Assembly (NCBI GenBank): GCA_001513075.1
Contig: LFSE01000121.1
Location: forward strand, 1-37,109
Source of the DNA: Clostridiales bacterium DTU074
GTDB lineage: Bacteria; Bacillota; Clostridia; Caldicoprobacterales; Caldicoprobacteraceae
Length of the DNA stretch: 37,109 nucleotides
Direction of reading: 5' to 3'
Both the position numbers and the translations under genes were made by a program. The notes under the pieces are model-generated. The model made no database searches and was not told where the DNA came from. It saw nothing but the letters and a program-made list of their open reading frames with translations. Shown here in pieces: positions 4,692 through 9,983 of this stretch (its first letter is position 1; every line of letters starts with the position of its first letter).

Positions 4692-5495
4692 TTAGCTTGT
4701 CAAACCCAGCATTATTCTGTCATCATCAAATTTCTTGCGAGCAGCACATTCAAACATATCCACCAGTTCATCCACCGTAAGCAAAGCCTTATCGGCACCC
4801 CGTATATCCAGAACCACCTTTCCTCCGTCCATCATTATAAGCCGGTTACCCATTTTTATAGCATATTCCATATTATGGGTAATCATAAGGGTTGTTATCC
4901 CCTTCTGAAGTACGATCTCTTCTGTCAGATCATTTATAAGCCTAACGGTGGACGGATCCAGGGCAGCCGTATGCTCATCAAGCAAAAGGAGTTTCGGCTT
5001 GACCATGGTGGCGATAAGCAGGGTTATAGCCTGACGCTGTCCCCCGGAAAGCAATTTCACCTTTGTATTCATGCGATTCTCCAATCCCAGTCCAAGTTCG
5101 GCCAGCTTCACCCTGAATTCCTTTCTCAGTTTATCGTTTAATCCCCACTTAAGCCCTCTCTTCTTATTTCGGCAAAGAGCCAGCGACAAATTTTCCTCTA
5201 TGGTCATAGATGGAGCGGTACCCATCAAGGGATCTTGGAAAACCCTTCCAATAAAGCTGGCTCTTTCATATTCCGGCAATCTGGTGATATCCTGATCATC
5301 AAGCTCTATTGACCCTTCATCAAGGGGAAACACACCGGCTATGACATTCAAAAGGGTTGACTTTCCCGCCCCGTTACTTCCGATGATGGAAACAAAATCA
5401 CCATCATATATCTCAAGATTTATGTTGCTAAGCGCAACATTTTCGTTTACCGTTCCTTTGTTAAAAATCTTGCTTACATTTTTTAACTTTAACAT
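4692..5495 (-). CDS. ABC transporter ATPase, TrpZ/COG1101 type
   Basis: 267-residue cytoplasmic ATPase that energises the permease encoded just upstream. Walker A GSNGAGKST spans residues 39-47, the signature LLSGGQRQ is near residue 150, and Walker B reads LLLLDEHTAALDP. The DEHTAALD form is characteristic of this uncharacterised importer family, found with TrpX/TrpY-type partners. ATG 5495 follows AGGAGG with an 8-base gap, 12 bp after the permease stop. It is the last gene of the three-gene operon and is followed by a clear terminator. The substrate class is not fixed by sequence: relatives have been linked to tryptophan or other amino acids, but no T-box is visible here. Confidence 0.93.
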   Translation of the reverse strand: MLKLKNVSKIFNKGTVNENVALSNINLEIYDGDFVSIIGSNGAGKSTLLNVIAGVFPLDEGSIELDDQDITRLPEYERASFIGRVFQDPLMGTAPSMTIEENLSLALCRNKKRGLKWGLNDKLRKEFRVKLAELGLGLENRMNTKVKLLSGGQRQAITLLIATMVKPKLLLLDEHTAALDPSTVRLINDLTEEIVLQKGITTLMITHNMEYAIKMGNRLIMMDGGKVVLDIRGADKALLTVDELVDMFECAARKKFDDDRIMLGLTS

Positions 5496-5507
5496 AATAC
5501 AATCCTC

Positions 5508-6386
5508 CTACGAAGACGCAATACGAAGCAGATTCTTTATCCTCGGTGTACTTAAAGCAATGATCACCAGGATGGTAGTCAATAACTTAAGATCAGTGGC
5601 CGCAAAGCCCAATCTCAAAGCAATTCCAATACTCAGTCTGTAAATAAAGGATCCCAGCAAAGCCGCAAATGTAGCGAGACCAACGCTTCTTTCCCCAATA
5701 ATCATCTCCCCTATTATCACGGAAGCCAAACCTGCCACGACGGTCCCTATCCCCATACCTATATCAGCAAAACCCTGATATTGGGCCACCAGCCCACCCG
5801 AAAGGGCTACCAGCCCGTTCGACATGGATAAGCCCAGGGTCTTCATTGCATCGGTATTAATTCCCAATGACCGGGCCATATCCGGGTTATTACCAGTTGC
5901 TCTAAGGGCAAAACCAAGTTGAGTTTTTAAAAAGCTGTCAAGAAGAATCTTTACCACAACGACTGCAACCACAAAAGCTGAAATGAACCCCCATCGCCGA
6001 GGTATGCCCAGTACTTCCTCGAGGTATGTGAACATTGTTTTTGCGTTTAACAGGGTTACATTTGCCTGTCCCATCACACGGAGATTTATGGAATACAGGG
6101 CTGTCATGGTTAAAATACCTGCAAGCAGGCCGGATATCTTTGCCCTGGTATTAAGAAAACCGGTAATAAAGCCCGCAATCATGCCGGCCATTAAAGACAG
6201 CACCAACGCTAAAAATGGGTTGCCACCATTAAATATTATGATGGAAGCCACCGCTGCCCCCAGCGGAAAGCTCCCATCAACCGTTAAATCCGGAAAATCA
6301 AGCACTTTAAAAGTGATATAAACACCCAGCGCCATTATTCCGAATACAAGGCCTTGCTCGGCTGAAGTAAGAAATAAATTTAACAA
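5508..6386 (-). CDS. ABC transporter permease, TrpY/COG4120 type
   Basis: About 292 residues and almost wholly hydrophobic, with eight or more predicted membrane helices; it resembles branched-chain-amino-acid-type permeases (BPD_transp_2 fold) and the COG4120 family. It forms the membrane channel for the lipoprotein and ATPase on either side. GAGGTG lies six bases before a TTG at 6386, so I prefer that start; a GTG at 6395 is in frame but overlaps this ribosome-binding site. It starts 15 bp after the binding-protein stop. Substrate unknown. Confidence 0.92.
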   Translation of the reverse strand: MLNLFLTSAEQGLVFGIMALGVYITFKVLDFPDLTVDGSFPLGAAVASIIIFNGGNPFLALVLSLMAGMIAGFITGFLNTRAKISGLLAGILTMTALYSINLRVMGQANVTLLNAKTMFTYLEEVLGIPRRWGFISAFVVAVVVVKILLDSFLKTQLGFALRATGNNPDMARSLGINTDAMKTLGLSMSNGLVALSGGLVAQYQGFADIGMGIGTVVAGLASVIIGEMIIGERSVGLATFAALLGSFIYRLSIGIALRLGFAATDLKLLTTILVIIALSTPRIKNLLRIASS

Positions 6387-6401
6387 AAATATCACCTCAT
6401 A

Positions 6402-7379
6402 CTATTCGATAACCTCTTCCGCTTCTGCGAGCATATCCTCCGATATAGTCAGTCCAATGGTTTCTGCAGCTTTTTTATTAACTATCAAGGTAACATTTTT
6501 GGCTTTCTCTATAGGTATATCCTGAGGCTTTTTGCCCTTAAGAACTTCCACGGCTATAGCCCCGGTCTGTTTTCCCAACTCTCTGTAATCTATTCCCTTG
6601 GTTGCTATGGCCCCGGCATCCACCTGACCCCGTTCCGAACCAATGACCGGTATCTTATTTTCGTTGGCGATCTTAATTACAGCTCCAATAGAAGAAACTA
6701 TCGTATTGTCGGTGGGAACATAAATGGCATCGACCCTGCCCATCAAGGATTGGGTGGCCTGACTTACTTCGTTGCTGTTACTCACAGCCGCTTCTACCAA
6801 AGTTAGCCCCAACTCACCCACAATTTCCTTGGCCATCTCCACCTGGACCTTGGAGTTGATTTCCCCGCTGTTGTACAGTATTCCAAGCCTTTCTGCATCG
6901 GGAACCAGCTCTTTTACCAGCTTTATCTGCTCATCCACCGGATTTATATCGGTTGTGCCGGTTACATTGCCACCTGGCTTATCCAGGCTTTCAGCCAGGC
7001 CCGCCGATACCGGATCGGTAACAGCCGTTATGAGTATGGGTATATCCTTTGTAACATTGGCCGCAGCCTGGGCTGCCTGCGTAGCGATGGCCAGTATCAT
7101 ATCCACCTTTTCATCGGCAAATTTTCTGGCTATGGTCTGGGCATTGTTAACATCGCCCTGGGCATTTTGATAATCGATCTTTATGTTCTTGCCATCCTCA
7201 TAGCCAGCTTCCTTAAGAGCTTCGATAAAGCCCTCCCGTGCGCTGTCAAGAGCAGGATGTTCAACCAACTGAGATATGCCAATTGTAACCACCTTTCCGG
7301 AAGACGCACCGCTGCAGGCAATGACGCCAATCAAAAGAAGTGAAAGAGACAGAAGAAAAATGCCTACCTTTTTTAACAT
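6402..7379 (-). CDS. ABC transporter substrate-binding lipoprotein, TrpX/COG2984 type
   Basis: 325-residue extracellular solute-binding lipoprotein (ABC_sub_bind family). Residues 1-21 are a lipoprotein signal peptide ending IGVIA, and C22 is the lipidation site. The mature part has the two-lobe fold with ITAVTDPVSAGL and the GNVTGTTD region typical of the family. ATG 7379 is preferred over the in-frame TTG 7397 because GGAGG (7392-7388) sits 8 bases upstream. It is the first gene of the transporter operon. The leader contains two mutually exclusive hairpins, one using the same GGAGG, so expression is probably set by RNA folding. The ligand may be an aromatic or other amino acid by homology, but this is not demonstrated. 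Confidence 0.93.
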   Translation of the reverse strand: MLKKVGIFLLSLSLLLIGVIACSGASSGKVVTIGISQLVEHPALDSAREGFIEALKEAGYEDGKNIKIDYQNAQGDVNNAQTIARKFADEKVDMILAIATQAAQAAANVTKDIPILITAVTDPVSAGLAESLDKPGGNVTGTTDINPVDEQIKLVKELVPDAERLGILYNSGEINSKVQVEMAKEIVGELGLTLVEAAVSNSNEVSQATQSLMGRVDAIYVPTDNTIVSSIGAVIKIANENKIPVIGSERGQVDAGAIATKGIDYRELGKQTGAIAVEVLKGKKPQDIPIEKAKNVTLIVNKKAAETIGLTISEDMLAEAEEVIE

Positions 7380-7477
7380 TAAAAAAACCTCCTTCAATAA
7401 TATTGACGGAGGGAAATAGCAAATAAATATGAATATTCTATTTTCCCTACCGTGCTACCGTTTTACTTATCATATGA
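7380..7477 (-). promoter_or_regulatory. Putative two-state RNA switch in the transporter leader
   Basis: Leader of about 98 nt. Hairpin 1 pairs 7453-7438 with 7419-7406 (14 bp, two single-base bulges; arms start ACGG and end CCGT). Hairpin 2 pairs CCTCC (7412-7408) with the Shine-Dalgarno GGAGG (7392-7388) and TCAA (7406-7403) with TTGA (7397-7394), with one G/A mismatch, and is followed by seven T. The two share 7412-7406 and cannot coexist. Hairpin 2 could act as a terminator or as a ribosome-site blocker; hairpin 1 would release it. ACGGTAG occurs twice in tandem (7461-7455, 7453-7447), giving two possible registers. No Rfam class recognised. Confidence 0.68.
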
Positions 7478-7512: not shown

Positions 7513-7560
7513 CACTATGTTTTTGTGAATATACTTTATTTTGATTTATATATTGCCCCT

Positions 7561-7660
7561 ATCAAAATTCGCTTACGCTCAGACATTGGTTCCGGCTTCC
7601 CTCCGCTTCGCTAACAGGTTCTAAGCCTTTTCGCGAGGCGAGTCCCATAGCATTCTTCAA
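7561..7660. other. GC-rich non-coding patch, possible dispersed-repeat remnant
   Basis: Within the 7513-7686 gap, about 95 bp are visibly richer in G+C than the AT-rich flanks. They carry near-repeated words (CGCTTACGCTC, CGCTTCGCTAAC) and a small inverted repeat, TTTTCGCGAGGCGAG. I see no convincing ORF. It may be a fragment of a dispersed repeat; that needs a genome-wide search. Confidence 0.35.
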
Positions 7661-7882: not shown

Positions 7883-7914
7883 GTGAATGACGATTTTTGG
7901 GGAGGTTGCCTTTT

Positions 7915-9225
7915 ATGGATTTACATACAAAGCTTAAGATTTTGGGGGCCGCCGCCAAATATGATGTATCCTGTTCGTCTAGCGGAAGCTCCCGGAAGAA
8001 CAGAGATGGCGGTTTGGGCAATGCCAGCTTGCCGGGGATCTGCCACAGCTGGTCCGATGATGGGCGATGTATATCTTTGCTTAAGATACTGCTTAGCAAT
8101 TGCTGTGTATTCAACTGCCTGTACTGCATAAACCGGGCATCGGCTGAAACGCCTCGTGCAACATTTACTCCTACTGAGATAGCCCAGCTTACCGTTAACT
8201 TCTACAAAAGAAATTACATCGAGGGCTTATTCTTAAGTTCTGCGGTATACAAAAATCCCGACCATACCATGGAACTTATACTCAACACCGTAATAAAGCT
8301 AAGGAAGGAATACCGTTTCAACGGTTATATTCACGTCAAGGCCATTCCGGGAGCAGACCCCCTGCTGATTGAGGAAACGGGCAAATACGTGGACCGCATG
8401 AGCGTCAACATCGAACTCCCGTCAAATCACGGGCTTAAGCTCCTGGCTCCGCAAAAAAATAGAGATTCAATATTAAAGCCTATGGAATTCATCCATACAA
8501 GGATACTCCAAACCAGAGAGGAGAAGAAGCTGTTCAGAAGTGCCCCTTCCTTCGTTCCGGCAGGTCAAACCACACAGCTGATTGTGGGAGCGACCATGGA
8601 TCACGATCTAAAGATTCTTCGCCTGTCTGAAAACCTGTATAGGCGGTTTTCTTTAAAAAGGGTGTACTATTCGGCTTATGTACCTGTAACCCGACACCCC
8701 AACCTGCCGGATATCGCCAATCCTCCCTTGCTTAGGGAACACAGGCTTTACCAGGCCGATTGGCTCCTAAGATTCTACGGCTTTACCACCACGGAATTGC
8801 TGGATGAAAAGCGACCCCATCTCGATGCGGAGTTGGATCCAAAGTCAGCCTGGGCCCTTCACAATCTTCACCTTTTTCCGGTTGAGGTTAACACAGCTGA
8901 CTATGAATTGCTTGTCAGGGTACCGGGAATAGGAGTAAAATCCGCCAAGCGAATTGTTATGGCCAGAAAACATCACACCATCGGCTACGAAACCTTGAAG
9001 AGATTCGGCGTAGCTCTAAAAAGAGCGCGCCACTTTATAACGTGCCGGGGCAAATATTACGGCGAAAGAAATATTTCACTAACAGGCCTTAGAGATTTAT
9101 TGACATCCGAAGTTGCAAGAAAGCGGAATACCATTCCAACGGGCGAACAGCTAACATTCCAAGCCCTCTATCCTCACGCCTTTACCGACAATGATGTCTA
9201 TACTATAATAAGCGGGGAGATTTAG
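7915..9225 (+). CDS. Radical SAM protein with HhH domain, putative DNA modification/repair (TIGR03916-like)
   Basis: 436-residue radical S-adenosylmethionine enzyme. The [4Fe-4S] ligands are C64, C68 and C71 in a CX3CX2C motif followed by INR. The C-terminal third carries a helix-hairpin-helix DNA-binding motif (LLVRVPGIGVKSAKRIV, about residues 332-348). This matches the family annotated as putative DNA modification/repair radical SAM proteins, which travels with the TIGR03915 family; the chemistry is not established. ATG 7915 follows GGGGAGG; an in-frame TTG at 7897 lies before that site and is rejected. The next gene begins 2 bp after the stop. A LexA-type box on the promoter supports a DNA-damage role. 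Confidence 0.92.
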   Translation: MDLHTKLKILGAAAKYDVSCSSSGSSRKNRDGGLGNASLPGICHSWSDDGRCISLLKILLSNCCVFNCLYCINRASAETPRATFTPTEIAQLTVNFYKRNYIEGLFLSSAVYKNPDHTMELILNTVIKLRKEYRFNGYIHVKAIPGADPLLIEETGKYVDRMSVNIELPSNHGLKLLAPQKNRDSILKPMEFIHTRILQTREEKKLFRSAPSFVPAGQTTQLIVGATMDHDLKILRLSENLYRRFSLKRVYYSAYVPVTRHPNLPDIANPPLLREHRLYQADWLLRFYGFTTTELLDEKRPHLDAELDPKSAWALHNLHLFPVEVNTADYELLVRVPGIGVKSAKRIVMARKHHTIGYETLKRFGVALKRARHFITCRGKYYGERNISLTGLRDLLTSEVARKRNTIPTGEQLTFQALYPHAFTDNDVYTIISGEI

Positions 9226-9227
9226 AA

Positions 9228-9983
9228 ATGATCCATTATATCTACGATGGAAGCTTTGAAGGGCTGTTAACAGCAATTTATGAAGCCTACAGTCGTCATG
9301 AACAGCCGGAAAAGATCCTCAAGGGTAATTGTCTGCAAGACAGCCTTTTTGTCAAGTATGTATTTATAGAAACCGATGAACAAAAGGCCCGAACAGTCTA
9401 TGATGCGGTTAAGCAGAAGATCTCTCCCGACGCTGCAAAAAACATACTCTATGCCTTTCTATCAGAGAATAAGGAAGCGGGTACCGCAATATATCAATAT
9501 CTGAAGCTGGGATGGAGGATGGGTAAAAGAGTGGACTCTGCCATAGCCGACCCATGGGTTTTTAAAGTACACAGCCTGCGCAGAAAAGTAAGCGGGGAAG
9601 CCGGCAGGATGCTGGGTTTGATACGCTTTCAACTGTTAAGCAGCGGTGTATATTATGCTTCCATTGAGCCGGATCACAATATACTGGGTATCATTGCCCA
9701 CCATTTTAAACAGAGGATACCCGGTCAGGATTGGATAATCCACGATGTAAAAAGGGCTTTGGCCGCCATCTATCATGATAACCAATATTTCATAGTCCCC
9801 TTTGAATTCAACGGCCCCCTGCCTTTAGACCAAAGTGAAATGGACTATCAAAACCTATGGAAGGAGTATTTTAAGGATATTGCCATAAAAAGCAGGATTA
9901 ACCCCAAATTACAACGACAAAACATGCCTTTGCGGTATTGGAAACATCTGATTGAAAAGCCCGGTGCAGCAAAAGACCTTTGA
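9228..9983 (+). CDS. TIGR03915/DUF4130-type putative DNA-metabolism protein
   Basis: 251 residues starting MIHYIYDGSFEGLLTAIYEA, the typical opening of the TIGR03915 (DUF4130) family. These proteins are nearly always adjacent to the radical SAM/HhH family and in some bacteria are fused to a uracil-DNA-glycosylase-like domain; no such domain is present here. The central KVHSLRRKVSGEAGRMLGLIRF and C-terminal RDIAIKSRxNPKLQRQ-like segments are conserved, basic and probably contact nucleic acid. Its ATG is 2 bp after the preceding stop with GGGGAG overlapping that gene's end, so the two are translationally linked. No signal peptide or membrane helix. The biochemical function is unknown. Confidence 0.88.
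   Translation: MIHYIYDGSFEGLLTAIYEAYSRHEQPEKILKGNCLQDSLFVKYVFIETDEQKARTVYDAVKQKISPDAAKNILYAFLSENKEAGTAIYQYLKLGWRMGKRVDSAIADPWVFKVHSLRRKVSGEAGRMLGLIRFQLLSSGVYYASIEPDHNILGIIAHHFKQRIPGQDWIIHDVKRALAAIYHDNQYFIVPFEFNGPLPLDQSEMDYQNLWKEYFKDIAIKSRINPKLQRQNMPLRYWKHLIEKPGAAKDL

Follow-up and report, generated by a model that had tools for sequence, protein, structure and literature searches.

The window, the whole 37,109-nucleotide stretch of DNA analysed here, carries on its minus strand the genes of an ABC transporter of the TrpXYZ type. They encode a TrpX-like substrate-binding protein (6402-7379; PF04392, with TrpX as best NCBIfam match, below its cut-off), a TrpY-like permease (5508-6395; PF02653) and a TrpZ-like ATPase (4692-5495; PF00005). 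Divergent from the transporter, positions 7897-9983 of the plus strand encode a radical-SAM/HhH protein and an adjoining DUF4130 protein. Anthranilate synthase (PF04715) was not found in the three genomes of the genus to which the window belongs, and the organism may depend on tryptophan uptake. In the sister genus, trpE is present in 4/4 genomes and has a T-box in its leader. The TRAP gene mtrB is conserved near dnaE and pfkA (C42:7004-7201 in the genome of the window, L069), though trpE is absent.

The leader of the trpX-like gene is read on the minus strand, to which all its coordinates refer. A promoter is predicted at 7502-7474, with a -35 box TTGAAT (7502-7497), a 17-nt spacer and an extended -10 element TG-C-TATCAT (7479-7474), and family relatives have a promoter at the matching position. 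From the promoter to the start codon the strand reads ATGATAAGTAAAACGGTAGCACGGTAGGGAAAATAGAATATTCATATTTATTTGCTATTTCCCTCCGTCAATATTATTGAAGGAGGTTTTTTTA-ATG. Transcription is predicted to begin just downstream of the promoter, near 7467; the preliminary description had named a start downstream of 7438 as the observation that would speak against a switch, and the predicted start lies upstream of that position. The transcript would open with UAG triplets arrayed at an 8-nt period, GTAA-AACG-GTAG-CACG-GTAG-GG (7466-7445), a putative site for a HutP-family protein. Its units are a degenerate UAA (7465-7463) and two intact UAG (7457-7455 and 7449-7447), where the Caldicoprobacter relatives have three intact units. 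The tandem ACGGTAG copies (7461-7455 and 7453-7447) that had been taken as a choice between pairing registers are real; they belong to this proposed protein-binding array, and the register reading is abandoned. The last UAG is included in the 5′ arm of an antiterminator, ACGGTAGGGAAAATAG (7453-7438), which pairs with the 3′ arm GCTATTTCCCTCCGT (7420-7406) in a 14-bp stem with two bulges, one U and one A. The 3′ arm includes the anti-Shine-Dalgarno (anti-SD) sequence CCTCC (7412-7408), with which the competing hairpin begins (7412-7381). This terminator, which also sequesters the SD, pairs CCTCCGTCAAT (7412-7402) with ATTGAAGGAGG (7398-7388) across a 3-nt loop (7401-7399) and is followed by seven T (7387-7381). 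The SD itself is GGAGG (7392-7388), and the ATG of the trpX-like gene is at 7379. All the hairpin elements of the preliminary description are thus present on the minus strand where it had placed them. A four-codon leader peptide, ATG-GTA-GCA-CGG-TAG, can be read in some relatives; it was rejected, the start codon being ACG in the window. Upstream of the promoter, a GC-rich block (GGGACTCGCCTCGCGAAAAGGCTTAGAACCTGTTAGCGAAGCGGAGGGAAGCCGGAACC...; 7560-7640, minus strand) occurs as a single copy in the window. L002 has a similar block (GAGGGAAGCCGGAACCAG...) upstream of its trpX, and L194 a shorter echo (AAGCGAAGCGGAAAGTAAG); the block may be a dispersed repeat, or it may represent an RNA.

The two folds are mutually exclusive, with energies of -16.2 kcal/mol for the antiterminator alone and -11.1 kcal/mol for the terminator/SD hairpin. 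Compared with shuffled sequences, the whole 111-nt leader has only a modest advantage in folding (z = -1.8; 11/200). Masking the array, or forcing it to be unpaired, shifted the leader of the window and of 6/6 relatives to the terminator/SD hairpin, so that the structure proposed earlier is correct. Six further genomes of the Caldicoprobacteraceae, those of C. oshimai and C. algeriensis among them, retain the transporter and its leader, and the off/on layout is kept in 7/7 genomes of the family. All seven keep the terminator hairpin and the U tract, with variation in the paired bases of the hairpin. The antiterminator pairs form in 100% of cells across the seven sequences with almost no variation, so that covariation within the family is uninformative. 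Between families, the corresponding stem shows covariation (6 two-sided cells versus 2.5 in shuffles, 2/500). In distant trpX leaders the antiterminator begins at the last array unit, as in UAGGAGA/UCUCCUA or GUAGGGA/UCCCUAU. About ten such leaders share with the window a last UAG that falls within or next to the antiterminator arm, and the changes between lineages are compensatory. The leader is a genuine attenuator-type off/on RNA switch. It combines exclusive antiterminator and terminator folds with a putative protein-binding sequence that overlaps the antiterminator arm, the layout of a protein-directed attenuator. Since the last array unit begins the antiterminator, binding to the array would favor termination.

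The most conserved part of the leader is not a fold. It is the repeat GTAG-TAYG-GTAG-NACG-GTAG-GG, followed along the leader by the anti-SD UUUCCCUCCGUCAA and then by the hairpin and U run. The repeating unit is a UAG triplet on the sense strand with an 8-nt period (GUAG-NAYR). In the same genome the array is also found upstream of aroF, which encodes DAHP synthase (C39:13672-13690), and the aroF leaders of relatives bear it too; T-boxes in the Caldicoprobacteraceae are found on trpE and on the second aroF paralogue, which has one instead of the array. A sequence-only model located the array across the class, ahead of genes for tryptophanase/TPL-type lyases and SSS symporters as well as trpX, aroF, aroH and aroE. 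A pattern of three units allowing at most one mismatch matched 74/391 genomes. Sixty-six loci have an assignable gene: 15 SSS symporters, seven each of TrpX, AroF and Tna-type proteins, and others that include AroH, PaaK and a DctP-type transporter. The array often takes the form GGAGGATGGTAGTATGGTAG, in which the SD and the start codon are themselves array units. At 26/66 loci no more than 30 nt separate it from the assigned start codon, which fits repression; other arrays lie hundreds of nucleotides upstream of the gene. Forty-four of the 66 arrays end at three NAG units; the search pattern itself demands three, so that only the scarcity of longer chains is informative, and this scarcity would be in keeping with a protein that has a threefold face, as HutP trimers do. 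A third array-like site in the genome of the window, GTAGGATGGTTGGATGGTAG (C79:19140-19159, L296), lies ahead of a DctP-type TRAP transporter substrate-binding protein, and similar sites precede DctP-type homologues in other genomes (L279, L302, L304).

Two families of amino-acid-sensing RNA-binding proteins, TRAP and HutP, are known to use NAG triplets. In the 391 genomes of the class, the HutP family (PF09021) is present in 127 and TRAP (PF02081) in 89. HutP was found in 63/74 genomes with the array versus 64/317 of the others (OR 22.6, p = 8.9e-26), and a reversed control pattern showed no association with HutP (OR 0.9). The genomes in these counts are not independent; counts by genus (38/45 versus 32/177, OR 24.6, p = 1e-16) and by family (OR 16.6, p = 5e-7) agree with them. 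Eleven array genomes gave no HutP match in the 391-genome search. Two of these eleven, G174 and G305, clearly have the regulon, and as their assemblies are 92% and 83% complete, hutP may possibly be missing through incompleteness. About half of the HutP genomes gave no array at the search stringency used. A distant TrpX homologue that retains the array (L008, 57% identity) comes from a genome with hutP-aroH, and two actinobacterial TrpX genomes that lack the array lack HutP as well.

Gene order links the same partners. The genome of the window has an apparent hutP-aroH-cmk operon. Across 123 hutP loci the neighbors are aroH, cmk, plsC or trpXYZ, with hutP followed by aroH at no fewer than 38 and directly by trpX at 13; no linkage of clostridial hutP to hut genes was seen at these 123 loci. 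The array core GGYAGNNNGGYAG occurs within 2.5 kb downstream of hutP 19 times in sense and 0 times in antisense orientation. The 13 hutP-trpX spacers hold 38 GUAG-GUAG pairs at a distance of 8 nt, versus a mean of 0.2 and a maximum of 2 in 200 shuffles, and a second peak at 16 nt; their opposite strand has no UAG pairs at 8 nt.

The HutP of the same genome matches PF09021 over profile positions 1-128 of 128 with 171.5 bits, versus a curated cut-off of 25. Its Pfam E-value is 1.2e-50 and that of B. subtilis HutP is 2.4e-32, and the two share the family over their full length. Outside this shared model their sequence similarity is weak, and PDB sequence searches with the clostridial protein did not reach B. 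subtilis HutP, so that the link between the two rests on the Pfam model. The histidines 73, 77 and 138 of the B. subtilis protein, which form its metal/histidine (histidine/Mg2+) site, are replaced in the clostridial proteins by Gly (122/122), Gly (122/122) and Leu (121/122), respectively. A ligand other than histidine is thus likely, and the content of the regulon points to an aromatic amino acid or a near relative. A divergent second type of HutP-family protein (L253, L254, L255; Pfam E-value about 1e-25) was found in one family (f42).

The competing folds, the array with its 8-nt spacing and its conservation, the gene context, and the association and physical linkage with HutP-family genes are computed results; that a HutP-family protein binds the leader RNA, with which ligand and to what effect, we infer. 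We put at roughly three in four the probability that the leader is a protein-directed attenuator, in which a HutP-family protein, probably in complex with an aromatic amino acid, occupies the array and shuts trpXYZ off. The nascent RNA would begin near 7467 with the UAG array at its 8-nt spacing. While nothing is bound to the array, the last unit ACGGUAGGGAAA would pair with UUUCCCUCCGU to form the antiterminator, which would hold the anti-SD off the SD and allow trpXYZ to be transcribed and translated. A HutP-family protein, whose gene lies elsewhere in the genome beside aroH and whose activator is most likely an aromatic amino acid or a close relative of one, would bind the UAG triplets and block the antiterminator. 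The CCUCC...GGAGG-U7 hairpin would then form, with termination and occlusion of the SD, and trpXYZ would be off. Where arrays cover the SD and AUG, binding of the protein would block translation and hence repress. An ample supply of the end product would thus turn down both uptake and the initial steps of aromatic biosynthesis. It counts against a HutP reader that the array of the window has only two intact UAG units, as do the eleven array genomes with no HutP match, the many HutP genomes with no array, and the departures from B. subtilis HutP in triplet spacing, in sign and in sequence.

TRAP (MtrB) loaded with tryptophan might instead bind the UAG triplets and favor the terminator as it does in B. 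subtilis. The logic of the attenuator would be identical, the triplets are of the NAG type, and TRAP is encoded in 7/7 genomes of the family. However, the spacers are of 5 nt rather than 2-3, and the triplets number 2-4 rather than 9-11. HutP still tracks the array in TRAP-less genomes (OR 24.8), whereas among genomes with HutP the presence of TRAP is without effect on the array (OR 1.03); 31 array genomes have HutP and no TRAP, and array genes are linked to hutP, not to mtrB. We therefore regard TRAP as an unlikely reader.

Two further readings dispense with an RNA-binding protein. The preliminary description had proposed that an RNA switch controls the transporter and that its fold is set by the transporter's own ligand or a related metabolite. 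The attenuator part of this proposal stands, and a protein is in principle unnecessary for antiterminator and terminator to exclude each other. It is nevertheless very unlikely that the leader acts as a riboswitch by binding tryptophan or some other ligand directly, as the conserved part is an unpaired repeat of variable copy number with no fold of its own. The repeat is found on many aromatic-amino-acid genes, is hard to see as an aptamer where it covers the SD or start codon, and co-occurs strongly with a protein family, HutP. The earlier remark that the leader has neither T-box features nor a known aptamer is confirmed: Rfam at gathering and relaxed thresholds gave nothing convincing on the sense strand of the window, its riboswitch models gave only a sub-threshold TPP match on the opposite strand (23 versus 54 bits), and a T-box leader (RF00230) is ruled out, with no match in the window. 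A direct repeat near the transcript start could also be an operator, bound by a repressor as double-stranded DNA, and in Caldicoprobacter the trpX and aroF repeats do lie right at the predicted start. Against this, the core is restricted to the sense strand at hutP-linked loci, arrays lie hundreds of nucleotides upstream of genes or over the SD/AUG, and the last array unit covaries with a downstream RNA partner, which makes a DNA operator the least probable of these readings.

The HutP-directed attenuator is reminiscent of known systems and departs from each. B. subtilis HutP, the antiterminator of the hut operon (PDB 1VEA, 1WMQ and others), belongs to the same Pfam family, and its RNA target consists of regularly spaced UAG triplets with 4-nt spacers, a period of about 7 nt versus 8 nt in the clostridial array. 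The B. subtilis protein is linked to hut genes, whereas clostridial hutP is linked to aroH and trpXYZ. The expected sign is also opposite: B. subtilis HutP antiterminates, whereas binding to the clostridial triplets, placed within the antiterminator or across the SD, should repress. In this the model resembles TRAP on the B. subtilis trp operon, where an amino-acid-activated protein likewise acts at NAG triplets in the antiterminator arm, and it shares with TRAP a second mode, covering the SD of transport genes. Unlike in the TRAP case, the proposed protein is of a different family, the array has 2-4 triplets at an 8-nt period versus 9-11 at 5-6 nt, and TRAP, although present in the genome of the window, does not track the array. 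In Streptococcus suis, the homologous trpXYZ operon is likewise controlled by attenuation, through a tryptophan T-box that senses uncharged tRNA-Trp (PMC9382623), an element that the leader of the window lacks.

We consider it likely, more broadly, that clostridial HutP is a widespread sensor of aromatic amino acids that reads a new code, (U/G)AG at an exact 8-nt period, and represses by attenuation and start-codon occlusion a regulon of uptake, shikimate entry, chorismate mutase and tryptophanase-type lyases. It would be a second evolutionary solution to the role that TRAP plays in Bacillus. We found no prior description of a HutP-read array in the open-access papers covered, nor of HutP coupled to chorismate mutase or of a HutP-like protein, HutP family or HutP homolog; subscription papers were mostly outside this coverage and may hold prior art. 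To our knowledge, HutP is known only as the histidine-utilization antiterminator of Bacillus. The family is large and apparently uncharacterized, with members in roughly one third of the genomes sampled from the class, and the arrays point to its regulon, its RNA code and the probable class of its ligand. If this reading is true, many anaerobes would govern the uptake and fermentation of aromatic amino acids without a DNA-binding repressor, and HutP-family and TRAP-family proteins would share one attenuation logic.
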